Below, piece by piece: positions 9,812-53,076 of a stretch of DNA of 55,712 nucleotides. The position numbers were made by a program, and so were the translations under genes. A model generated the notes under the pieces. It was not told the DNA's origin, did not search any database, and was given only the letters and a program-made list of their open reading frames with translations. Source of the stretch: Spirochaetes bacterium ADurb.Bin133 (GTDB taxonomy: Bacteria; Spirochaetota; GWE2-31-10; MWDO01); the NCBI GenBank assembly GCA_002070605.1, contig MWDO01000014.1:1-55712 (forward strand), given 5' to 3'. Each line of letters starts with the position of its first letter. The first letter of the stretch is position 1.

Positions 9812-9973
9812 AAACTATCACCTCTTATTTTTGATGCGAAATATTAAAACGCAAGTTAAAGAATAAAATATTTTTTTAAAATTTCAAAGAGTTTTTTTTA
9901 TTTTTTTTTATTTTTATTAATTATTTAATTTGTTTTTTATATCCGCAAAATAGTAAAATATTTTAAATTTGCG
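9812..9973. promoter_or_regulatory. Upstream region of the V-ATPase operon
   Basis: A very AT-rich 160-bp stretch with runs of T and A. It must hold the operon promoter, but no clear -35/-10 pair stands out on the minus strand; TTGAAA near 9890 is the best -35 candidate. Confidence 0.35.
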
Positions 9974-10125
9974 CCCGTCGGTTTTTTGGAAATTGACGCA
10001 TATGTGTCAAAAATAAAAATCGACGCATATTGAACAGTTTTTTTTAGTTAGTAAATTATTCGTCTTAATCCAACGCATATACGTCATTCGTCTCAAAAGT
10101 TGTCATTCCCCAAAAAACCGACGGG
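9974..10125. repeat. Dispersed inverted-repeat element, complete gene-less copy
   Basis: It begins CCCGTCGGTTTTTTGG and ends CCCCAAAAAACCGACGGG (10108-10125), giving arms of about 16-18 bp that face each other. Inside are several TGACGCATATG-like boxes, one of them a near-palindrome (TTGACGCATATGTGTCAA). The interior TTAGTAAATTATTCGTC stretch also occurs upstream of the 171-aa genes, tying this small copy to the gene-bearing element. Confidence 0.8.
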
Positions 10126-10151
10126 GTTACGTAAAGAGTAATTAGAGACTA

Positions 10152-10796: not shown

Positions 10797-10905
10797 TTTC
10801 GGACGTCCTTGTCCTCAAAAGTCGTTGCGCCGCGCTTTAGACGCATATGTGTCAAAAAAAAATTGACACATATGGGACAGTTGCTCTTACCAAAAAACCG
10901 ACGGG
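10797..10905. repeat. Dispersed element, right half
   Basis: The module TTTCGGACGTCCTTGTCC at its left end, extending to GTTGCGCCG, recurs almost exactly at 20001-20036. It is followed by two TGACACATATG-type boxes and the right arm CCAAAAAACCGACGGG (10890-10905). No left arm CCCGTCGG is visible. Confidence 0.7.
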
Positions 10906-10912
10906 ATACGCG

Positions 10913-24539: not shown

Positions 24540-24690
24540 CCCCGTCGCTTTTTTTGGCGCGGTGTGGGAGAAAATGACACATATGGAGCAAATAAAATGA
24601 CACATATGGAGCAAATAAAATGACACATATGGAACAAATAAAATGACACATATGGAACAAATAAAATGACACATATGGAACAAATATCTT
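24540..24690. repeat. Five tandem 23-bp copies of the TGACACATATGG box
   Basis: It opens with an arm-like CCCCGTCGCTTTTTTTGG, then five perfect or near-perfect 23-bp units start at 24571, 24594, 24617, 24640 and 24663, each AAAATGACACATATGG followed by AGCAAAT or AACAAAT. It lies between convergent genes. Confidence 0.85.
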
Positions 24691-26465: not shown

Positions 26466-26610
26466 ATCCGCTCCCTGATTGATATTATTAAGAATGGCGC
26501 AATCGTCTATTTTAGTCAAGAATTTTAAGAAAAATTGACGAATTTTTATATATCAATAAAAATAATTTTCAAAATTAAACATTTTTTTAAATTTATCCGC
26601 ATTAAGTACT

Positions 26611-27318
26611 CCGTCGGTTTTTTGTGGGACGGGGAAATGACACATATGGCGCTAAGAATAAATTGACACATATGGGATAAATATTTTTAATTAGCAAAAT
26701 ATTTATCATTTTTTAAAATTTATCCAAATTTTTGTAAAGAGTTTTCTACTTTTAGTTGTTATATATATTAAAGAAAAAGGAGAAAACTTTATGAAAAACA
26801 AAAAACATCTATTCCATTTTATAGTATCAGAGTCTATGAATAAGAACGTCATAGATTTTTTACTAAAAGAGTTCAAAGTTAATACGTTCAGTAAACTATT
26901 TGAAACAATGTTTTGCCTTATTGACAAAAAAATCCTAAAAATGAAAAGGATAATAGGGAATCATCGCTCCGAATACGCTGTTATAGATAATATCGACGAT
27001 AAAAGGTTAAACAAATACCTCAGGATTAGCGAAGCGGATTATCTTCAAATTAAAAGATGGCATTCTTTGTATAATGAATTTGGTATGGCTTCGACAGTCC
27101 GCGATATTATCTTGTTTTTCTATAACGGCGTTATGAAATACGGGTTGGAAGGATTTCTTGAGCTTATTGGTAAGAAATTGAGGATGGATAAATTGAAAAA
27201 CGACTTTTTGGATAAAATGACACAACTGTTAAACATCAACGCTCGAAAACAGCTGTTATACACGCTCCTGATCGAAAATTATCCCAGATACGTCTACTCT
27301 ACGTAAAAACTGAGGGGG
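26611..27318 (+). mobile_element. Gene-bearing copy 1 of the dispersed element
   Basis: The left arm CCGTCGGTTTTTTG starts at 26611, followed by two TGACACATATGG boxes, a conserved 90-bp leader, the 171-aa gene, and a right-arm remnant AAAAACTGAGGGGG (27305-27318) fused to the stop codon. The arrangement matches the intact copy at 52213-53054. It fills the 325-bp gap after the DUF362 gene. Confidence 0.6.
26791..27306 (+). CDS. Element-borne 171-aa protein, copy 1, RHH-like
   Basis: A 171-aa protein, one of three close paralogues here (others at 35820 and 52508). Two segments look like ribbon-helix-helix units: residues 6-48 (strand HLFHFIVS, then two helices) and 75-118 (strand KYLRIS, helix EADYLQIKRWHSLYNEFG, helix MASTVRDIILFFYNGVMKYG). 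It may therefore be a single-chain double RHH DNA-binding protein; this is inferred from the pattern. It also recalls the Leptospira DUF1564 proteins (from memory, weak). No nuclease or HUH motif is seen. AGGAGAAAAC precedes the ATG. The last third of the protein differs most between copies, while residues 56-122 are almost fixed. Confidence 0.65.
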   Translation: MKNKKHLFHFIVSESMNKNVIDFLLKEFKVNTFSKLFETMFCLIDKKILKMKRIIGNHRSEYAVIDNIDDKRLNKYLRISEADYLQIKRWHSLYNEFGMASTVRDIILFFYNGVMKYGLEGFLELIGKKLRMDKLKNDFLDKMTQLLNINARKQLLYTLLIENYPRYVYST

Positions 27319-27340
27319 ACAAATTTCTTTCCTTTTTTTG

Positions 27341-34075: not shown

Positions 34076-34217
34076 AATAATCCTCGATAAAATAAAAGTT
34101 CTCTAAATTATCGGATAAGGATATATTATAACTTAAATAGTCTTATGTTTAAAATTTTATAGATTTATTAAGTATATCTAAAATTTTAAAATATATATCG
34201 GTTAATTTTCTTAGCGT
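34076..34217. other. AT-rich divergent intergenic region
   Basis: No gene is seen. It must hold the minus-strand promoter of the SPOR gene, but no confident -35/-10 pair is visible. Confidence 0.3.
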
Positions 34218-34449
34218 CCCGTCGGTTTTTTGGGGCGAGAAAATAACGCCATATGTGTCAAATTTATTCTTAGCGTCATATGTGTCAATTTTACCCCTCA
34301 ACTTCCCCTTTGCCTTGTCATTCTAAGCTTGTCGAAGAATCAGGACTACAGCTCGCGCGTACCCGATGCGCGCGATGTTAAAGATAAAAATCGACGCATA
34401 TGAGACAGATATTTTAATCGGTAAATTATCTCCCCAAAAAACCGACGGG
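34218..34449. repeat. Dispersed inverted-repeat element, complete gene-less copy (232 bp)
   Basis: The left arm CCCGTCGGTTTTTTGGGG (34218-34235) and right arm CCCCAAAAAACCGACGGG (34432-34449) are exact reverse complements over 18 bp. The interior has three CATATG boxes and a GC-richer central insert that includes GAAGAATCAGGACTACAG. Confidence 0.9.
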
Positions 34450-34527
34450 CGCATTTTCTTAAATAATAACTATTTACTTTTATCAATTTTTTTGGTAAAA
34501 AATATCATAACATTTTTTGGAGATTTT

Positions 34528-35690: not shown

Positions 35691-36372
35691 TTGACACATA
35701 TGGAGCATTTTTCCTAATTTAATAAATTATTCGTCATTTTCTAAAAATTTATCCAAATTTTTGTAAAGAGTTTTCTACTTTTAGTTGTTATATATATTAA
35801 AGAAAAAGGAGAAAACTTTATGAAAAACAAAAAACATCTATTTCATTTTATAGTGTCTGAATCTATGAATAATAACGTCATAGATTTTTTACTAAAAGAG
35901 TTCAAAATTAATACGTTCAGCGAGTTATTTGAAACTATGTTTCGTCTCATTAACAAAAAAATCCCAAAAATGAAAAGAATAATCGGAAATCATCGCTCCG
36001 AATACGCCGTTATAGACAATACCGACGATAAAAGGCTGGATAAATACCTTAGGATCAGCGAAGCGGACTATCTTCAAATAAAAAGATGGCATTCTTTGTA
36101 TAACGAATTCGGTATGGCTTCGACGGTCCGCGATATTATACTGTTTTTTTATAACGGCGTTATGAAATACGGGTTGGAAAGATTTCTTGAGATTATTGGT
36201 AAGAAATTGAAGGTCGATAAATTAAAAAACGACTTTTTGGGTAAAATGACACAACTGTTAAATATCGCCGATCAAAAACGGCTATTATACGCCCTCGTAA
36301 TCGAAAATTATCCCAAATACGTCTACTCTACTTAGAATTATTTTTCTATTCCGCCAAGAAAAACCATCGAGG
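35691..36372 (+). mobile_element. Gene-bearing copy 2 of the dispersed element, degraded ends
   Basis: It has one TTGACACATATGG box at 35691, the conserved 90-bp leader, the 171-aa gene, and a decayed right arm (CCAAGAAAAACCATCGAGG, 36354-36372). No left arm was found, so this copy is probably fixed. Confidence 0.5.
35820..36335 (+). CDS. Element-borne 171-aa protein, copy 2, RHH-like
   Basis: A 171-aa protein that differs from the copy at 52508 at about 13 positions by eye. The central block from GNHRSEYAVIDN to FFYNGVMKYGLE is almost unchanged, while changes cluster after residue 125. The 90 bp upstream, including TTGTAAAGAGTTTTCTAC and the ribosome site AAGGAGAAAAC, are also nearly identical to the other two copies, so the unit was duplicated with its expression signals. 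The likely ribbon-helix-helix layout is described for copy 1. It lies between the acyl carrier protein and PlsC genes and interrupts that set. Confidence 0.65.
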   Translation: MKNKKHLFHFIVSESMNNNVIDFLLKEFKINTFSELFETMFRLINKKIPKMKRIIGNHRSEYAVIDNTDDKRLDKYLRISEADYLQIKRWHSLYNEFGMASTVRDIILFFYNGVMKYGLERFLEIIGKKLKVDKLKNDFLGKMTQLLNIADQKRLLYALVIENYPKYVYST

Positions 36373-37776: not shown

Positions 37777-37781
37777 CATAC

Positions 37782-38032
37782 CCCGTCGGTTTTTTTGAGG
37801 GCGCGTAATGAAAATAATTTGACACATATGCGTCGCGCTGAACCCTCGATTTCCCCTCGCATACGCGCGGGACGCGAAATCGAGGGTTCAATAGTCGCGC
37901 GTATATAGCTCCATATGTGTCAAATTTTTAAAACAGTAGAGCGCACCCCGCCGTTTGTCGGTATCATATGTGTCAATTTCTCTCAGGGGCGGCGCATATA
38001 GCTCCATATGTGTCAATTTCAAAAAACCGGCG
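37782..38032. repeat. Dispersed element with nested 15-bp inverted repeat
   Basis: The left arm CCCGTCGGTTTTTTTG (from 37782) and right arm CAAAAAACCGGCG (38020-38032) enclose four CATATG boxes. Nested inside are TGAACCCTCGATTTC (37839-37853) and its perfect complement (37876-37890), able to form a strong hairpin. It explains most of the 400-bp gap between acpS and the OmpA gene. Confidence 0.8.
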
Positions 38033-38058
38033 TAGCGCGTTTTTCAATTTGGTTATTA

Positions 38059-39409: not shown

Positions 39410-39425
39410 AGTTATCAACATAACT

Positions 39426-39566
39426 CGTCAGTTTTTTGGGGAGGAATGACAACTTTTGGGACAGTTCCTTTAAAATGACACATATGCGTCGGATTGAGAC
39501 AAATAATTCACTGATTAAAATATTTGTTTCATATGTGTCAATTTTCCCACCCCAAAAACTGACGGG
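39426..39566. repeat. Dispersed inverted-repeat element, CGTCAG variant
   Basis: The arms CGTCAGTTTTTTGGGG (39426-39441) and CCCCAAAAACTGACGGG (39550-39566) enclose two CATATG boxes. Read on the minus strand the interior parallels the copy at 9974 (ATTTTAATCAGTGAATTATT). Confidence 0.85.
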
Positions 39567-39574
39567 ATACATCC

Positions 39575-41008: not shown

Positions 41009-41079
41009 AATTATCTCCTCATAAAATTTATAGTTTATTTTTTAAGAAAACTCAAGAGTATTATCTGAAAATTAGCGTT

Positions 41080-41183
41080 CCGTCGGTTTTTGGGGATGGA
41101 GAAATAAAATGACACATATGATACCGAAAATAAATTGACACATATGAAACAGGTATTTTCTCTCGCCCCAAAAAACCGACGGG
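41080..41183. repeat. Dispersed inverted-repeat element (104 bp)
   Basis: The arms CCGTCGGTTTTTGGGG and CCCCAAAAAACCGACGGG enclose two boxes. The interior from AAATAAAATGACACATATG to TATTTTCTCTCGCCCC is nearly identical to the copies at 42701 and 43931. Confidence 0.85.
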
Positions 41184-41206
41184 ATACAAAAAGAAGAAAA
41201 ATAGCC

Positions 41207-41272
41207 ATGTCAATCGAAATAACCGTAGATAATAGCGAAATCAATGCGCGTTCGTTGCGGCTTGATTTTTGA
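41207..41272 (+). other. Mini-ORF ending in a solitary CRISPR repeat, copy A
   Basis: ATG to TGA, encoding 21 aa that begin MSIEITVDNSE and end LRLDF. The last codons lie inside the degenerate CRISPR repeat at 41254. The sequence is similar at the amino-acid level to copies B (41592) and D (44062). The start resembles the N-terminus of phage HK97-gp10-like proteins; translation is unproven. Confidence 0.4.
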
Positions 41273-41441: not shown

Positions 41442-41467
41442 GGCGATTAAATAAAAAAAAGGGTAAT

Positions 41468-41567
41468 CCGTCAGTTTTTTGGGATATGGAAATGGATAAC
41501 GCGAGCCTGTCTCAAAAAAATTGACACATATGGAACAAATATTTTTTATTCCCCAAGAAACTGACGG
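41468..41567. repeat. Dispersed inverted-repeat element (100 bp)
   Basis: The arms CCGTCAGTTTTTTGGG and CCCCAAGAAACTGACGG enclose one TTGACACATATGG box. Confidence 0.8.
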
Positions 41568-41591
41568 AATACAAAAAAAAGAAAAATAGCC

Positions 41592-42700: not shown

Positions 42701-42800
42701 TGCGGTTTTTGGGGATGGGAAATAAAATGACACATATGATACCGAAAATAAATTGACACATATGAAACAGGTATTTTCTCTCGCCCCAAAAAACTAACGG
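42701..42800. repeat. Dispersed inverted-repeat element (100 bp), block C
   Basis: The left end GCGGTTTTTGGGG is atypical (it follows GTT, recalling the CRISPR repeat start); the right end is CCCCAAAAAACTAACGG. The interior is nearly identical to the copy at 41080. The unit that elsewhere leads into a mini-ORF and CRISPR repeat is cut after about 15 nt (ATAGCTACGTCAATC). Confidence 0.75.
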
Positions 42801-42832
42801 AATACAAAAAATAGCTACGTCAATCATACCCG

Positions 42833-43930: not shown

Positions 43931-44039
43931 TAACGCATATGCGCCGCGCCGCTCATCGATGGAAATGACACATATGATACCGAAAATAAATTGACACATA
44001 TGAAACAGATATTTTCTCTCGCCCCAAAAAACTGGCGGG
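43931..44039. repeat. Dispersed element next to the array, left arm lost
   Basis: Boxes at 43931, about 43966 and 43990 are followed by a right arm CCCCAAAAAACTGGCGGG (44022-44039). The interior matches 41080 and 42701. Confidence 0.75.
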
Positions 44040-44061
44040 ATACAAAAAAAAGGAAAAAACC

Positions 44062-44118
44062 ATGCCAATCGAAGTAACCATAGATAATAGCGAAGTCATG
44101 CTACGGTTTGATCTTTGA
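44062..44118 (+). other. Mini-ORF ending in the first array repeat, copy D
   Basis: Encodes MPIEVTIDNSEVMLRFDL, with AAGGAAAAAACC before the ATG as a plausible ribosome site. The last codons are in the degenerate first CRISPR repeat. Confidence 0.4.
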
Positions 44119-46771
44119 TTTTGATATGGTATAATCGAAAGGAGTTTTGTGATGTATAGCGAAGAGTTGCGGTTTGATCTTTGATTTTGATATGGTATAA
44201 TCCGATTACGCTAGACACGATTTTGAAGTGCGTTGCGGTTTGATCTTTGATTTTGATATGGTATAATGCCGACAGAGGTAGAGTCTAAACTAATGGAGTT
44301 GCGGTTTGATCTTTGATTTTGATATGGTATAATCTTGAGGTGAAGCTCAATTCGTTTGTGAAGTTGCGGTTTGATCTTTGATTTTGATATGGTATAATTA
44401 ATTTCGCGAGTTTTTCTTCTTCGCTTAGTTGCGGTTTGATCTTTGATTTTGATATGGTATAATCTAAATAAAGGAAGAACAAAGCAACTAAAAGTTGCGG
44501 TTTGATCTTTGATTTTGATATGGTATAATAAGGCGATAAACTGCTAATTATATTGGGAAGTTGCGGTTTGATCTTTGATTTTGATATGGTATAATCTTAA
44601 ATAGCAAAATACCGGAAACCGCTCTGTTGCGGTTTGATCTTTGATTTTGATATGGTATAATTAATATTTCTGTCGAAATTATGAAAACTTTGTTGCGGTT
44701 TGATCTTTGATTTTGATATGGTATAATTGAGAATGGCGAGCGAATGAGTTCTGAGGTGTTGCGGTTTGATCTTTGATTTTGATATGGTATAATGGATTGC
44801 ATCTGTTAGAGAGTTGTATATCGTTGCGGTTTGATCTTTGATTTTGATATGGTATAATTTGCCTCCAAAATAATACTCTCTTCGAGTAGTTGCGGTTTGA
44901 TCTTTGATTTTGATATGGTATAATGAGGTCAAAACTTTGGACAAAAAAAATCTAGTTGCGGTTTGATCTTTGATTTTGATATGGTATAATAATTCTGAAT
45001 AGTTGTTGTCTTTGTCGTAGGTTGCGGTTTGATCTTTGATTTTGATATGGTATAATGAGGTTTTAAAAATGGAAGTCACACTGGAAGGTTGCGGTTTGAT
45101 CTTTGATTTTGATATGGTATAATAAAGAAACTCAAAGCAGCTATAGAATCTAGTTGCGGTTTGATCTTTGATTTTGATATGGTATAATTTATTTGCCGGA
45201 GGGAATAAAAGACGCTGGGTTGCGGTTTGATCTTTGATTTTGATATGGTATAATTCAAGAATTTCTTTCTGTTGTTCTATATAGGTTGCGGTTTGATCTT
45301 TGATTTTGATATGGTATAATTCTAAAAGAGGGCTCTGCTATTCACGCAATGTTGCGGTTTGATCTTTGATTTTGATATGGTATAATTAATCCGACACCAG
45401 CAACAACAGAACCTAAGTTGCGGTTTGATCTTTGATTTTGATATGGTATAATCAACAGGAAGAAGAGAAGAAAAGAATCGAAGTTGCGGTTTGATCTTTG
45501 ATTTTGATATGGTATAATGAAATATTCAGATTGAAAGTTTGCCGGCGGGTTGCGGTTTGATCTTTGATTTTGATATGGTATAATTAAAATATTGGATAAG
45601 TGTCCATTTTTCAAGTTGCGGTTTGATCTTTGATTTTGATATGGTATAATAGCATAACTTATGAGGTGTCTTGTAGCGTGGTTGCGGTTTGATCTTTGAT
45701 TTTGATATGGTATAATTTAAAAAATAATATTAAAATATTAAATGAAGTTGCGGTTTGATCTTTGATTTTGATATGGTATAATAAAATCAACAGTTTTAAT
45801 TAATTTCTTGCAGTTGCGGTTTGATCTTTGATTTTGATATGGTATAATCGGCGACTATTACAAGCGATACGACAGTAAGTTGCGGTTTGATCTTTGATTT
45901 TGATATGGTATAATTGACCTTTTGCGACGAAGTCCGCTATATCTGTTGCGGTTTGATCTTTGATTTTGATATGGTATAATGTTCTGATTTTCTATATCTT
46001 GATGAATATGTTGCGGTTTGATCTTTGATTTTGATATGGTATAATAGCGAAAATGATATATGCGGAAGATTGCTAGTTGCGGTTTGATCTTTGATTTTGA
46101 TATGGTATAATTAAAAAATATCGCAAAGAATATTAGAAATAGTTGCGGTTTGATCTTTGATTTTGATATGGTATAATACTAAAAAGCGGTATATAATTAA
46201 GCTCCGAGTTGCGGTTTGATCTTTGATTTTGATATGGTATAATTTTGGCTATCTCGCGAATAGTTACGCGGAGTTGCGGTTTGATCTTTGATTTTGATAT
46301 GGTATAATTCTTGAAATACAGCTCCTCGCCTTGACACTGTTGCGGTTTGATCTTTGATTTTGATATGGTATAATTCCGATGTAGTGTTGTCGTCTATATC
46401 TCTTTGTTGCGGTTTGATCTTTGATTTTGATATGGTATAATAATAGAAAGGCGTTTATCCTGCGCTGAGAAGTTGCGGTTTGATCTTTGATTTTGATATG
46501 GTATAATAAATCGGGCGGCGTTTGAGGCGGCTTATTAGTTGCGGTTTGATCTTTGATTTTGATATGGTATAATTTATGACACCTTCCCAACGGCTCAGAC
46601 TGGGTTGCGGTTTGATCTTTGATTTTGATATGGTATAATAAAATTATTGCCTTTGTTATAAATTTTTGGGTTGCGGTTTGATCTTTGATTTTGATATGGT
46701 ATAATCGTGAAAGGCGGCAAGCGTGAAGGATCGGGGTTGCGGTTTGATCTTTGATTTTGATATGGTATAAT
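44100..46771 (+). CRISPR. Type II-C CRISPR array, 41 repeats and 40 spacers
   Basis: By hand count, 41 repeats of 36 bp (start GTTGCGGTTTGATC, end GATATGGTATAAT) run from 44100 to 46771 with spacers of 29-31 nt, mostly 30. The first repeat (44100-44135) has two changes; the others looked identical. Each repeat contains TTGATC (positions 9-14), 16 bp, and TATAAT (31-36) preceded by TG, an extended -10 promoter. Transcription is therefore expected to start inside each spacer on the plus strand, as described for Neisseria II-C arrays. The orientation agrees with the tracrRNA anti-repeat. Frames reading LYHIKIKDQTAT repeats across it are artefacts of the 66-bp period. Confidence 0.98.
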
Positions 46772-47287: not shown

Positions 47288-48184
47288 CTACTCCAAAGTC
47301 GGATAAATTATCTTTTTATCTTCTCCCGAAAAACATCTCGCTAACGAAGCGGTAGTCTGCGACAATCCGACCATAAAAGGTCTTTTAACGTTAGGATATT
47401 CAGCGTCTACTGTCAAAATTTCAAGCAGTTTTTTCTTCATATCGCTTGTTAATCCGGTAGCGTCGGGGCGTTCCACAGATATATTGTAAACCGCCTCGTC
47501 CACAAACGGCCTAAACGGCTCCATAATATCGTCCGCTAGACAAAAGGCGTTATATCTATTACAATGATGTATCCCAAGCGTCGGCAATAATCCCGATCCC
47601 GTTAAACTTCTGGCGACCGCCGATCTCACTACGGCGTAACCGTAATTTAGAGCGCAGTTAGGAAACTCTCCTCCGACATCTCTTTTAAACTCGATATCTG
47701 AAAATAGCCGTTTCCAATAAACTCTAGCCGCTACCGCTTCGCGATTGTCCGCGTCGCCGCTTTTAACTGAGTTTTTATATTCGTAAAGTTTGATATAATC
47801 TTTATTCAATTTTTTGAGTAATCTTATCTGATTGTCTATTTTTGCTTCGACAGTCTGTTTCCACAACTTTTTCTTTAGCGGTTCGGATGCGTTGATCTGA
47901 TTTGAGAATATTTCGCTCTGTATATGGTTGCCGTCGAGATTTAGCAACAAACTTTTTGGATTATGAGTCGAATCGCAAAAAACGACGGCGACGTTGTTCT
48001 CTATCAGTAACTCCAAAACCGACATCGATACGCTAATTTGCCTATTGTCTATAACGACAAATCCGATATCCTCTACCGGAAAAGTCGTCTCCGGTTTTTC
48101 GTCAGTATGCGGTTTATATACCAACTGGGAGTTCTTGATATGAAGATAACAAGGCGTGGAGAAAAAAATCGTCTTCTTTAACAT
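47288..48184 (-). CDS. cas1: CRISPR-associated integrase Cas1
   Basis: A 298-aa type II Cas1. The metal-binding residues are Glu149 (DNREAVAARVYW), His206 (LGIHHCNRYNAF) and Glu222 (DDIMEPFRPFVDE). The N-terminal beta domain (1-75) is complete. It catalyses spacer integration with Cas2. It lies 47 bp after cas9; no csn2 or cas4 is present, which is what defines subtype II-C. Confidence 0.97.
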   Translation of the reverse strand: MLKKTIFFSTPCYLHIKNSQLVYKPHTDEKPETTFPVEDIGFVVIDNRQISVSMSVLELLIENNVAVVFCDSTHNPKSLLLNLDGNHIQSEIFSNQINASEPLKKKLWKQTVEAKIDNQIRLLKKLNKDYIKLYEYKNSVKSGDADNREAVAARVYWKRLFSDIEFKRDVGGEFPNCALNYGYAVVRSAVARSLTGSGLLPTLGIHHCNRYNAFCLADDIMEPFRPFVDEAVYNISVERPDATGLTSDMKKKLLEILTVDAEYPNVKRPFMVGLSQTTASLARCFSGEDKKIIYPTLE

Positions 48185-48231
48185 AACTTTTTCCCGATTA
48201 TTCCGTAAATTTCATAATCGGAATACAAAAG

Positions 48232-51200
48232 TTAAAAAATAAATTTTATCTTCCCGTCGTTAGTTATCAGGAAATCTTTATTCTCGATTAAGGCCTTGAA
48301 TTGAGAATGTAACAACATTCTTTGCGGAATATACTCCTCATTATTTTTAAAAGAGATATTTATTTCTTTTAATTCTATACTTGCTCTGGATTCTAAATGA
48401 TGCCTCAAAGAAATTCTACCATATTCGTACTTCTTTTGCGCGGTCATAGACGAAAAACCGATAATTTTATACAATCTTTTTGACAGTTCTTTTACATTAT
48501 CTTTGATGCTATCAATTTCTCCTTTACTGTTTTCATATAACAATACCATCATTCCTCTTTTTAATTTCTGACGTAATTGAAGCCCGTTTTTTTCATCGGG
48601 CAGTTTTGTATTTTTTGACTTTGCGAGTTCAAAGTTACTAACAAGTATAAAATCTTTTTTCGGTTTATTGGCGATTGTCCCTTCGTATATCCCCATCATA
48701 TAATTACTATCGTTCGTTACATAGATATTTTCTTTATACTCCTGTCCATCCTTAGATTTATCTCTATGATTCTTTAAGATTATCGGATTTGCAATATTCG
48801 TCATTTGATATCTAACTTTATTTATCGGGATTTTTTTCTCTTCATTCATCCAGATAGTTTCCGATATCGCCTCGGCAAAACTTTTACCGTCAGTCGTTCG
48901 GCGCTCAATAACCGCCCTAATTTTTCTTCTAATTCCTTCGTCGACAATATTATCTATCTCTTTTTCGTTTTTCAGACTATTTACAGGTTTTCTTACGACA
49001 TAACGCAATTTTTCGTTATTATTTTCGTCTTTTCTTTTAATAGCGCCGTAGAAAGTATCAAGATGCAACGAACCTCGAAAAGTATCTCCCTGCATATAGA
49101 TTGGCTTATTCTTGCCGTCGTTACCTTCCGGATACTTTATTTTACCTCTAATTCTTAATTTCTTCTTACTTTGTTTAAGCGTTTTATCTTCAAAATGATG
49201 TTTTACTATGATTTCATCCTCGATTTTTTTTATATCTTCGACAAATGTAGCCCATGGCTTTTTGAATGTCGGTCTTAAACCTCGCTCGGCATCTTTATAA
49301 AAGGTAGATAACAAATTGTATTTCGGTCCGGTAATACTTGCCAATACAATAGCGTCGACGGTATGATGACTATGTTTATTTCTAGATTTTATATCATATT
49401 CGTTCTGTACTCCCCATATTTTCCTAAATTGAGCGGTCATACTCCCTTTTATTGAGTTTACATCGTCAAATACGGTTTTTAGATAAGCCCTTGCATATTT
49501 TGTTATAATGGCGGTATCGCGTAACTGTCTATTTGTAAATCCTGAAGGAATATCTTTTATTAAAAATCTGTCGTATTTTTGTTTGAGATAATCCTTTTTT
49601 AATATCAAATAATTTTTCCATTGGATAGCTTTGTCCTTATCTTCCTTAGAACTAGAGTTTTTTGAAGAATTTTTTGCCTTATTAATCTGTTTTTCAAAAT
49701 TTTGATATTCTTCTTTCCAATGTTCTATTCTCAATAAAATTTCCTCTATATTTGGAAGTTGTTGAGGAATCATATTTTTCTTAATATTCCTATTAAAATC
49801 GTTATGGCATAACGTCAGATTAACTTGCGAATCGTCAAAAGATAAACTTCGAGGAATAGTATGCTCAATATCATAAATGGGATTGTCGGATAAGAAATCT
49901 GAAATATTTATCTTTTTTCCCGTATATAGACACATATGGCGCTGTTCCTCCCATAATTGATATTTTAGTATATCTGTTTCAGTAGGTTCAATTTTGAGGG
50001 TATCTTTAATTTTTTGAGCGCATTCTTTTTTGTTTTTTTCCAGTTCGTTTTGATATCTTTTTATAGCCGCTCGCATATTTGCATCGTTAAGTTCTCGCGT
50101 CAGTTCAATATTTATTGTATCGTTAGACGATATTTTGTTTTCTTTAATTAAAGTATTTATTAGTTTTTTTAATTGATGTAGAGTTTTCATCGCCATAGGA
50201 TTTCTAACAGATTGAGTACGAGGAGACCCCAAATATTTTTTTCCATCCGGAGCCGGTTTAGCGTCCGGATATATATCTAAGTCGGATGGATGAAATAATT
50301 TAGTTAAATTTTGTTCGGGAATATCGTATTTATCCTTTAATAACTCGATTATCTTCTCGTCAAGTCGTTTTATCTTGATAAAATCGTTCCTTTTAATCAT
50401 TTTTTCCAATAAAGAAAAATATTCATCGATAAAGGTTACCCTTTCCGATTCATTCAAAGATATAAAATCTTCGCCCAGCTCAGAATCTAACTTTTTTATA
50501 AAATCTTCTTTTTCTATTTTTAAACTAAAATGATTTTCTCTGTATTTGTAAATATATGAATTTATTATGTTTTCTACTTTTTTAGAATTTCTAAAAACGT
50601 CTATTAGAGATTTAATATCCTCTTTTATTTCGCTAAGCTTATTTTTATTTTTCTCATCAACCGCCTTGCCAAGATTCGCAAAATACGCGGAGTAAGAATA
50701 CAAAAGCCCTTCTTTAAGATATGGTAATATTTTTCTGATTGCGCATAAACTGAGACTTCCGTATCCCTGTTTTAGTTTTATCTTACTGAGTTTATTCGCT
50801 TTGTCTTCATCGAGTTTTAGTCGATTAATCCCAAATTCTTTGATTTTTTCAACGCTGTCGAAATTAAATAGTACATGCCAAATAGTTTCATAATTTATTA
50901 TGGATTTTTTATTATCTTTTTCTCTGATGTATTCAAAATTAATATTTATCCAATCGTCTCCAAATATTTCTATCAACTGAGAAATAGTCGGACACCCGGA
51001 TACTAAAGTCCAATCTGTATAATTTAACGTCATATCTCTATTTTTATTAGTTATCCTTTTTCTAATTTCTTCAAAATCAAAATTTGGTTTTGACTTTCTC
51101 AAAAACAGAGGTTTTATCATCAATTTTTCTTCGTCGTTTAAGAACCTTTTTTCATTTATAACTTTTATCGAGTTTATAAATTGTAAAGCTCTGAATTCTT

Positions 51201-52008
51201 CAAATAATGGATGGGAAATAGGACATCTTGGTTTTGATTTTTCAAAAACGCATTTCCCAACTAATCCTTTTTGGGATTTTAACGGTCGTTGAAAAAAAAT
51301 CGCTTTTTCCAGCTTTATAGATAATTCTTTTGAAAATTGTTGAATTTCGCATATTTTTTTGAATTCTGATAAATAATGTTGTTCTCTTGACGTGTATTTG
51401 CTTCGTATCTTGTCTCCCTTTTTATACAATTCGTAAAAATATTCGCCTAAAGTAAGAGTTCCGATATTTTTATTTATTTCGTTTATACCGCTGTTTACTT
51501 TTCCGTCCTCATTTGCTTTTGTCGTTTCTAATCGATTGCTTTTATATCCTCTTCTTTGAGCTATATGATATAACGCTCTGCCAACTTCGTATAACGGTAA
51601 TTTACTTTTTGCAGACATCGCTCTAAAATAATAAGGATTTTTGTTTGTCGCTTCGTCAGTTTTTAGCCACTCCAAAAAATCTTTACTCTTAGGATACTCT
51701 CTTTTAAAACCTTTTTTATATTTTGCCCATTTTTCAAGTTCTTCTAAAGTCAAAGGAGACATTTTGTTTTCTATTAATACTTTTAAAGTTTCATACTTTC
51801 TCAATCTTCTTCTGAATTTTTGTCTTCGAGCAAGTCTAAAGGACGTTCTTTCCGCCGCTTTTGACGATTCGACTCCCTTTTCAATTTTTACCCCCTCTGA
51901 AAAAATAAATACGCCGCTATCGATTAGTTTATGTTCACCCCTCTCCTCTTCGACAATCGCCCAGCCGATCGAATTTGTTCCGAGATCGAGTCCTAAAACT
52001 TTTCCCAT
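48232..52008 (-). CDS. cas9: Cas9, type II-C RNA-guided nuclease
   Basis: A 1258-aa protein. RuvC-I MGKVLGLDLGTNSIGWAIVE has Asp8, and the Arg-rich bridge helix is RRQKFRRRLRKYETLK. RuvC-II IELTREL has Glu635. The HNH domain DIEHTIPRSLSFDDSQVNLTL has His716. RuvC-III HSHHTVDAIVLA has His882 and Asp885. All catalytic residues are present, so it should be active. It is longer than the about 1080-aa Neisseria enzyme, with an enlarged recognition lobe. The C-terminal PAM-interacting region is not assignable. The promoter TGTTATAAT lies about 30 bp upstream. Confidence 0.97.
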   Translation of the reverse strand: MGKVLGLDLGTNSIGWAIVEEERGEHKLIDSGVFIFSEGVKIEKGVESSKAAERTSFRLARRQKFRRRLRKYETLKVLIENKMSPLTLEELEKWAKYKKGFKREYPKSKDFLEWLKTDEATNKNPYYFRAMSAKSKLPLYEVGRALYHIAQRRGYKSNRLETTKANEDGKVNSGINEINKNIGTLTLGEYFYELYKKGDKIRSKYTSREQHYLSEFKKICEIQQFSKELSIKLEKAIFFQRPLKSQKGLVGKCVFEKSKPRCPISHPLFEEFRALQFINSIKVINEKRFLNDEEKLMIKPLFLRKSKPNFDFEEIRKRITNKNRDMTLNYTDWTLVSGCPTISQLIEIFGDDWININFEYIREKDNKKSIINYETIWHVLFNFDSVEKIKEFGINRLKLDEDKANKLSKIKLKQGYGSLSLCAIRKILPYLKEGLLYSYSAYFANLGKAVDEKNKNKLSEIKEDIKSLIDVFRNSKKVENIINSYIYKYRENHFSLKIEKEDFIKKLDSELGEDFISLNESERVTFIDEYFSLLEKMIKRNDFIKIKRLDEKIIELLKDKYDIPEQNLTKLFHPSDLDIYPDAKPAPDGKKYLGSPRTQSVRNPMAMKTLHQLKKLINTLIKENKISSNDTINIELTRELNDANMRAAIKRYQNELEKNKKECAQKIKDTLKIEPTETDILKYQLWEEQRHMCLYTGKKINISDFLSDNPIYDIEHTIPRSLSFDDSQVNLTLCHNDFNRNIKKNMIPQQLPNIEEILLRIEHWKEEYQNFEKQINKAKNSSKNSSSKEDKDKAIQWKNYLILKKDYLKQKYDRFLIKDIPSGFTNRQLRDTAIITKYARAYLKTVFDDVNSIKGSMTAQFRKIWGVQNEYDIKSRNKHSHHTVDAIVLASITGPKYNLLSTFYKDAERGLRPTFKKPWATFVEDIKKIEDEIIVKHHFEDKTLKQSKKKLRIRGKIKYPEGNDGKNKPIYMQGDTFRGSLHLDTFYGAIKRKDENNNEKLRYVVRKPVNSLKNEKEIDNIVDEGIRRKIRAVIERRTTDGKSFAEAISETIWMNEEKKIPINKVRYQMTNIANPIILKNHRDKSKDGQEYKENIYVTNDSNYMMGIYEGTIANKPKKDFILVSNFELAKSKNTKLPDEKNGLQLRQKLKRGMMVLLYENSKGEIDSIKDNVKELSKRLYKIIGFSSMTAQKKYEYGRISLRHHLESRASIELKEINISFKNNEEYIPQRMLLHSQFKALIENKDFLITNDGKIKFIF

Positions 52009-52190: not shown

Positions 52191-52212
52191 ATAAACGGTC
52201 ATTGTTTTTGCG

Positions 52213-53054
52213 CCCGTCGGTTTTTTGAAAAGAGAATTTGACACATATGAGTCGCGTCGATAACGCGCGACAATTGTCGCGCGGCGCTCCTCGATAAAAA
52301 ATTGACACATATGGAACAGATATTTTCGGATAAAGTAACTTCATTACCCTTAGCGCTTTGGAAAGTAGAGGGAAAATTGACGCATATGTGTCATTTTTTT
52401 TAATTAGTAAATTAATTATCATTTTCTAAAAATTTATGCAAATTTTTGTAAAGAGTTTTCTACTTTTAGGTGTTATATATATATACAAAGAAAAAGGAGA
52501 AAACTTTATGAAAAACAAAAAACATCTATTTCACTTTATAGTATCCGAATCTATGAATAAGAATGTCATAGATTTTTTACTAAAAGAGTTCAAAATTAAT
52601 ACGTTCAGCAAACTGTTTGAAACTATGTTTCGGCTTATTGACAAAAAAATCCCAAAAATGAAGAGAGTAATCGGAAATCATCGCTCCGAATACGCCGTTA
52701 TAGACAATACCGACGATAAAAGGTTGGATAAATACCTTAGAATCAGCGAAGCGGACTATCTTCAAATAAAAAGATGGCATTCCTTGTATAACGAATTCGG
52801 TATGGCTTCAACGGTTCGAGATATTATCTTGTTTTTTTATAACGGCGTTATGAAATACGGGTTGGAAGGATTTCTTGAGATTGTTGGTAAGAAATTAAGG
52901 ATTGATAAATTGAAAAATGACTTTTTGGGTAAAATGACACAACTGTTGAGTATCGCCGTCAAAAAACGACTATTATACGAGCTCGTAATCGAAAATTATC
53001 CCAAATACGTCTGCTCTACATAAAACTATTTTTTATTCCCCAAAAACTGACGGG
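52213..53054 (+). mobile_element. Gene-bearing copy 3 of the dispersed element, both arms present
   Basis: The left arm CCCGTCGGTTTTTTGAAA (from 52213) and right arm CCCCAAAAACTGACGGG (53038-53054) enclose about 842 bp. Inside are four CATATG boxes, the palindrome GCGACAATTGTCGC (52267-52280), the conserved leader and one 171-aa gene. The left end begins just after the tracrRNA terminator. This is the most complete copy and the reference for the family. Confidence 0.7.
52508..53023 (+). CDS. Element-borne 171-aa protein, copy 3, RHH-like
   Basis: A 171-aa protein, about 92 percent identical to copy 2 by eye. The frame is open 24 codons further upstream, but the ATG at 52508 follows AAGGAGAAAAC and gives the same N-terminus (MKNKKHLFHFIVSES) as the other two copies. 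It carries the same two strand-helix-helix units as copy 1. No catalytic motif is seen. Its place inside inverted repeats suggests either a DNA-binding repressor of the element or a factor acting on the element ends; which of these is not decidable from sequence. Confidence 0.68.
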   Translation: MKNKKHLFHFIVSESMNKNVIDFLLKEFKINTFSKLFETMFRLIDKKIPKMKRVIGNHRSEYAVIDNTDDKRLDKYLRISEADYLQIKRWHSLYNEFGMASTVRDIILFFYNGVMKYGLEGFLEIVGKKLRIDKLKNDFLGKMTQLLSIAVKKRLLYELVIENYPKYVCST

Positions 53055-53076
53055 ATACTTTTTTACAAAATTTATC

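Follow-up and report, generated by a model that had tools for sequence, protein, structure and literature searches.

In the usual picture of insertion elements, most copies are dying. Mobile insertion cassettes, such as MIC231/IS231 of Bacillus cereus and mic-qnrD, are defined by inverted repeats, the lack of a transposase gene and a target duplication (PMC3913671). Prokaryotic MITEs of types I and II are short, possess terminal repeats and target duplications, lie between genes and reach hundreds of copies; normally, they derive from a transposase gene (PMC10969869). In RAYT/REPIN systems, a small gene is accompanied by many dispersed short palindromic units, which are thought to be moved by the gene product. 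There, the RAYT is an HUH/tyrosine transposase, usually present in one or few copies, and the REPINs are doublets of REP sequences that form hairpins (PMC3116915).

The locus described in the following lies in a window of 55,712 nucleotides, which is contig MWDO01000014.1 of Spirochaetes bacterium ADurb.Bin133. The genome of the window (G000) is a draft assembly of 2.985 Mb in 103 contigs, of which 2.553 Mb (86%) were read. The comparison set consisted of 41 genomes of relatives; among these, a sister species (G001) is the single genome of the same genus. The initial annotation had reported inverted-repeat arms around a 171-aa gene at 52213-53054, and both were recovered at these positions. 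Based on the genome-wide comparison of units, the ends of this unit were placed 4 nt beyond the arms (Table 1). Its target duplication is eroded past recognition, and the G001 contig for the orthologous locus begins inside the next gene. The perfect palindrome upstream of the gene, TGACGCATATGTGTCA, is the site that is conserved upstream of most gene copies.

Two additional copies in the window, at 26611-27318 and 35691-36372, had been described as decayed. This is true of their arms (in the third unit, the left arm was not found and the right one is decayed) but not of their genes: both ORFs are intact, encode 171 aa, and are 89-92% identical to the copy at 52508-53023. Both arms are present in each of the short units announced at 9974, 34218, 37782, 39426, 41080 and 41468, and the partial units at 10797, 42701, 43931 and 55552 proved to be real fragments. 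Between 41080 and 44150, a unit followed by a CRISPR repeat-like sequence occurs three times (at 41088, 42706, 43944 and at 41253, 41629, 44099, respectively). This triplicated segment adjoins a type II CRISPR array of 41 repeats (44100-46771), with cas1 and cas9 at 47288-52008; a comparison of the CRISPR spacers with the units gave no convincing match. Near the contig start, a relic of 37 nt (412-448) resembles the 3'-terminal part of the 171-aa gene (73-84%).

Table 1. Positions of units, gene and internal sites within the window
Feature	Position	Strand	Remarks
Complete gene-bearing unit, both terminal repeats	52209..53058	+	Arms and genome-wide comparison of units
Left arm of this unit	52213-52227		
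Right arm of this unit	53040-53054		
171-aa gene, probable ribbon-helix-helix-type DNA-binding protein	52508..53023	+	Intact ORF; paralogues; weak RHH_1 match in homologues
Operator-like site TGACACATATGAGTCG	52239..52254	+	26 nt inward of left arm, unit 52209-53058
Operator-like site TGACACATATGGAACA	52303..52318	+	In unit 52209-53058
Half-site pair TGACGCATATGTGTCA, perfect palindrome	52378..52393	+	130 nt 5' of gene
Second palindrome CGCGCGACAATTGTCGCGCG	52264..52283	.	Within unit 52209-53058; recurs in other units
Leader hairpin	52454..52505	+	AGTTTTCTACTTTT pairs with Shine-Dalgarno region AAAAGGAGAAAACT; loop contains TATATATATA
Second gene-bearing unit	26606..27319	+	Left arm retained but right one decayed; intact ORF 26791-27306
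Third gene-bearing unit	35692..36372	+	Operator site kept; ORF 35820-36335 intact
Gene-less unit	9970..10129	.	
Gene-less unit	34214..34452	.	9-bp target duplication ATTTTCTTA at 34205-34213 and 34453-34461
Gene-less unit	37778..38038	.	Several operator sites
Gene-less unit	39420..39570	.	
Gene-less unit	41075..41187	.	
Gene-less unit of the 102-bp class	41463..41572	.	Flanks are A-rich duplication AAAAAAAAG, low complexity
Partial unit	10835..10909	.	Right end and two operator sites
Partial unit	42706..42805	.	92% copy of segment 41088-41192
Partial unit	43944..44043	.	83% copy of segment 41088-41192
Left-arm relic	24541..24690	.	Five 23-bp operator repeats in tandem come after it (24571-24688)

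A tblastn search with the 171-aa protein identified 83 places in G000. The 2.553 Mb contain 55 complete intact gene copies and 2 internal fragments; 13 further pieces abut contig ends. These pieces signal that the draft breaks at gene copies, and the true number of intact copies is probably 55-70. Allowing for at most 2 mismatches, G000 has 250 + 252 matches to the arm CCCGTCGGTTTTTTG (1 + 2 for a reversed-pattern control). A longer arm of 18 nt is found 210 + 222 times (432) in G000, 3 + 3 times in G001, and at background level in 39 other relatives. Arms and gene occur together throughout the genome: 35 of the 51 complete gene copies with enough flank possess both arms, each scored with at least 12/18 matches. 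Most or all intact gene copies sit in mobile cassettes. The units form two size classes of about 52-410 bp (mode 102) and, with the gene, about 694-842 bp; their sequences show that gene-less units of about 75-410 bp and one-gene units of 0.7-0.85 kb have common ends. In G001, there are 11 homologues of the gene, some of which are only about 40% identical; among the latter, L046 has both arms, and L039, L047 and L048 have the left arm. Copy number differs about five-fold between two species that belong to one genus and have about 90% protein identity. A close homologue in G001 (L032) and the L004 copy of G000 (C73) have one flank of 1.16 kb in common, which is located at opposite ends of the element and suggests a rearrangement or inversion there.

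If extended outwards, the arm becomes a terminal inverted repeat of about 22 nt, GYRYYCCGTCRGTTTTTTGGGG; just outside of it stands a direct target duplication of 9 bp. This duplication agrees in at least 8 of 9 positions in 20 of 88 short units (0.31 expected), and when every pair of arms spaced by no more than 8 kb was considered, duplications were found in 59/1121 cases (3 in the reverse-complement control). The duplications of gene-bearing units are mostly eroded; 9 of 35 agree in at least 7 of 9 positions (1.8 expected), and those at C44:21740 and C18:33450 are complete (9/9). Moreover, three empty sites were found. The unit C8:47120-47229 of G000 is flanked by the 8-bp duplication ATTTATTT and splits a sequence that runs through without a break in G001 (L048), a 103-bp unit (C5:19246) is nested in another family member, which is found uninterrupted at many loci, and a 119-bp unit (C19:14689) lies between tandem paralogues, the other paralogous junction being without it. 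The sequence of the last unit is that of a gene-bearing unit from which the gene, together with the greater part of its leader, has been deleted. On the evidence of duplications and empty sites, the arms are the ends of real mobile units, and the gene-bearing units have transposed as well. The initial annotation had made its mobile-element idea dependent on the co-occurrence of arms and gene and on an occupied/empty polymorphism among related genomes; since arms and gene co-occur and an occupied/empty pair exists between the two species, the idea survives on both counts. Likewise, its picture of a gene-bearing element with MITE-like derivatives stands, except for the term "parent", which is uncertain, as the short units seem to be younger than the copies with the gene.

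A palindromic site, TGACACATATG (full palindrome TGACACATATGTGTCA), is dispersed in 660 copies in G000 and in 69 copies in G001 (2 and 3 for controls). It is contained in 52/52 duplicated units up to 850 bp (0/52 after shuffling), where it is usually positioned 20-38 nt inward from a unit end; with 50/52 versus 47.1 expected, the operator-to-end distance is weak as a test of function. The site precedes 42 of 51 gene copies, in most cases by about 130 nt, and all 11 homologues of G001, even where the identity is as low as about 40%. About 85% of the sites lie between genes or at the edge of a segment (78% strictly between genes), compared to an expectation of about 10%. The sequence shows that most insertions of the units are located between genes and that insertion duplicates 9 bp of the target. 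Sites do not prefer promoters, nor convergent regions once the intergenic space on offer is taken into account, and so there is no direct sign that neighbour genes are regulated. This lack of preference argues against the assumption that the protein is a host factor, i.e. a nucleoid organiser or global regulator, and that the MITE-spread sites constitute a beneficial network under selection. The strong purifying selection on old copies and the wide dispersal of operators between genes would agree with such a role; so would the presence of 69 operators but 6 arm matches in G001, as sites seem to outlast arms. However, copy number differs by a factor of about five between the two congeneric species, and the gene-bearing units themselves transposed. 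We regard a host factor as quite improbable.

A second palindrome, (AAA)ACGGGAATTCCCGT(TTT), occurs 143 times in G000 (control 2), for example at C9:3246 and C9:3849, and some terminal-repeat units hold both palindromes. There is also a second small gene family with a similar leader, which consists of three copies of about 190 aa (C9:3367-3948, C33:28796-29365, C52:13406-13975); the second palindrome is located upstream of at least one of them (C9). With 143 sites and 3 genes, the number of operators per gene copy is strongly different from that of the first family.

The gene copies are evenly 84-94% identical in DNA, with a median of 89%. Their values of dN, dS and omega are 0.057, 0.45 and 0.12, and complete copies contain 0 stops, although the chance of finding no stop in a neutral copy at the observed divergence is about 0.04 per copy. 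This substitution pattern shows the amplified copies to be under purifying selection. An ordinary decayed IS/MITE family, with neutral copies of a host gene as passive hitch-hikers, would explain the terminal repeats, target duplications and MITEs, none of which is out of the ordinary; passenger genes in mobile insertion cassettes are indeed known (PMC3913671). Yet the low omega at this dS and the absence of pseudogenes among 55 complete copies exclude neutrality, and we consider passive carriage extremely unlikely. The amplified lineage is intact, unlike older lineages of the gene family in G000, which are decaying (stop in C12:44046, 315-bp deletion at C6:18538-18835). Because two pairs of orthologous old copies in G000 and G001 have dS values of 0.33 and 0.58, the amplification is roughly of the same age as the species split. 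A star phylogeny alone was ruled out as the cause of the even divergence, since the linkage between silent sites decays with distance, reaching background level within about 60 nt, and pairs have long tracts in common: identical tracts of 205-264 nt occur in some pairs that are 86-89% alike overall (shuffled maximum 97). These tracts show gene conversion between dispersed copies.

The initial annotation had noted that the protein has no transposase motif. Searches with Pfam, NCBIfam and PDB profiles confirmed this statement; they gave no family match at all, and none to transposase, nuclease or recombinase families in particular. Among the genomes compared, homologues are confined to one order of the phylum, that of G000 (they occur in G001, G004, G005 and G008), and those of G004 are related to the 171-aa family according to a profile comparison (97%, 4e-11, residues 3-111). 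The best match to RHH_1, found for a G004 homologue, has 16.2 bits versus a cut-off of 20.5, and the window protein itself does not match the RHH models. The structure model, based on the three near-identical window copies, has a pLDDT of 51.7 and contains the helix pairs 18-27/30-56 and 81-96/103-128, which are placed as this reading requires, and no strands. Although the matches lie below the cut-off and the structure model is poor, the former designation "RHH-like" is plausible. We infer that the protein is probably of the ribbon-helix-helix type, and we read its fold as two tandem beta-alpha-alpha units followed by C-terminal helices. In 16 homologues, M1, H9, F10, Y84, K88, H91, R104, G113 and G118 are invariant; these residues contain neither a conserved acidic triad nor an HUH motif, and for the latter there is no Pfam match either.

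The conservation of the leader matches that of the gene (0.89 versus 0.81 at third codon positions). Folding predictions indicate that the Shine-Dalgarno region is paired with a value of 0.73 in a long transcript but of 0.25 if the transcript starts after TATATATATA (TATATA; 47 copies). Leaders that hide the ribosome-binding site in read-through transcripts are known from IS10/IS50, and the predicted hairpin seems to resemble such an insertion-sequence guard against read-through.

Repeats break the G000 assembly, and the search for a transposase covered 86% of the genome. No transposase was contained in any of the duplicated units defined by arms no more than 8 kb apart (2.55 Mb, 86% of G000), and the few such units longer than 1 kb, considered as a transposase-bearing parent, were due to chance or local duplicates. 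DDE_Tnp_1 had no match in the search of G000. Two groups of candidate helpers were rejected: IS256-type relics (C3:99831, C36:17665) are not adjoined by an arm, and an rve/DDE-type IS, which is the only multicopy transposase-like ORF, has unrelated ends of its own, TGTCGTTCAACTTTGAGACTTGACGC. The five copies of this IS are all located at contig ends (C44:19-690, C2:155593, C31:32819, C17:52355, C39:8). A phage origin was discarded as well, because the exact arm in three viral contigs is due to chance (67% GC, no paired arm); viral relatives of the protein were not found.

Alternatively, the 171-aa protein might itself be the transposase, or at least a protein that is essential to transposition, and thereby define a novel class of insertion sequences; it would bind the subterminal sites and catalyze strand transfer via an active site outside known families. 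Its gene is the only one in the units, and the leader hairpin, by hiding the ribosome-binding site in read-through transcripts, follows an insertion-sequence design. The terminal repeats accompany even those G001 homologues that are only about 40% identical, which implies that ends and gene have long been together. Furthermore, the presumed site of the protein is kept in every duplicated unit; this could mean that a site-binding protein is essential for transposition, which comes nearer to this alternative. On the other hand, the protein resembles no transposase, nuclease or recombinase family and lacks a conserved acidic triad, the old G001 homologues are mostly without both ends, and many dead copies would be expected, of which there are none among the complete ones. 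Taken together, we deem a transposase function unlikely. We also doubt that the sole transposition protein encoded by the element is a small protein of the ribbon-helix-helix type that lacks known catalytic motifs, with tens of copies kept one by one through selection and homogenised by gene conversion.

The explanation we favor, with moderate confidence, is a family of mobile insertion cassettes and MITEs whose cargo is their own DNA-binding regulator and whose transposase acts in trans. In such a cassette family, the ribbon-helix-helix-type protein would recognise the TGACACATATG site, repress its own promoter and coat the other units, thus serving as family regulator and possibly as an accessory factor in transposition. 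Strand transfer would be accomplished by a DDE-type transposase encoded elsewhere, which may be lost or absent from the draft; it is this location of the transposase that would make the gene-bearing units mobile insertion cassettes and the short units MITEs. Each copy would be kept intact by small fitness gains that derive from the total dose of protein, this dose being matched to the about 660 sites, and gene conversion would homogenise the copies. Note that the ratio of 143 sites to 3 genes determined for the second palindrome counts against this explanation. Having 55-70 intact and individually constrained copies in a 3-Mb genome contradicts the usual picture of insertion elements, and offers a bacterial case for asking what keeps selfish genes alive: gene dose, repressor titration, or concerted evolution.

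With the known mobile insertion cassettes, the gene-bearing units have in common the inverted repeats around a non-transposase gene, the target duplication, and the lack of a transposase gene inside or nearby. They differ by their number of about 55-70 copies, by a cargo with a predicted dispersed binding site of its own, and by hundreds of gene-less derivatives; they fit the cassette definition with the qualification that a helper IS with matching ends was not found in 86% of the genome. The short units are, by their sequence features, MITEs: they are gene-less and intergenic, possess terminal repeats and target duplications, and exist in hundreds of copies. However, their gene-bearing relative encodes a probable DNA-binding protein instead of a transposase, and a transposase of their own, as required for an insertion sequence, was not recognised in the units by means of Pfam, NCBIfam and PDB profiles. 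Despite the combination of a small gene with many dispersed palindromic units, this is not a RAYT/REPIN system: there is no HUH motif, the duplications comprise 9 bp, and the gene itself has been multiplied to about 55-70 copies.

DUF1564 (PF07600) is an expanded paralogous family known from Leptospira; its occurrence in genomes that share the phylum of G000 makes Spirochaetota the probable phylum. Similarities are a size of some 150-200 aa, a multiplicity of tens of copies in one genome and a short, palindrome-like motif upstream that is also dispersed without the gene. Homology of the two families, which had been suspected by eye, was rejected by a profile comparison with hhalign (0.1% probability), and PF07600 had no match in G000. 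In G011 (L138-L148), which is only distantly related but belongs to the phylum of G000, DUF1564 has 49 copies, and 31 of these are preceded on their own strand by TGTGGGAACTCC at a distance of up to 600 bp (0.25 expected); 40 of the 84 exact motifs listed stand away from any DUF1564 copy. Terminal repeats were not seen in the alignments made for DUF1564. Gene and site may represent the same kind of co-amplification. The second, unlinked palindrome/gene pair of G000 and the parallel with DUF1564 make it possible that small DNA-binding gene families spreading with their own binding sites are a recurring, unnoticed pattern, and the co-spread of gene and binding site may explain the expansion of DUF1564.
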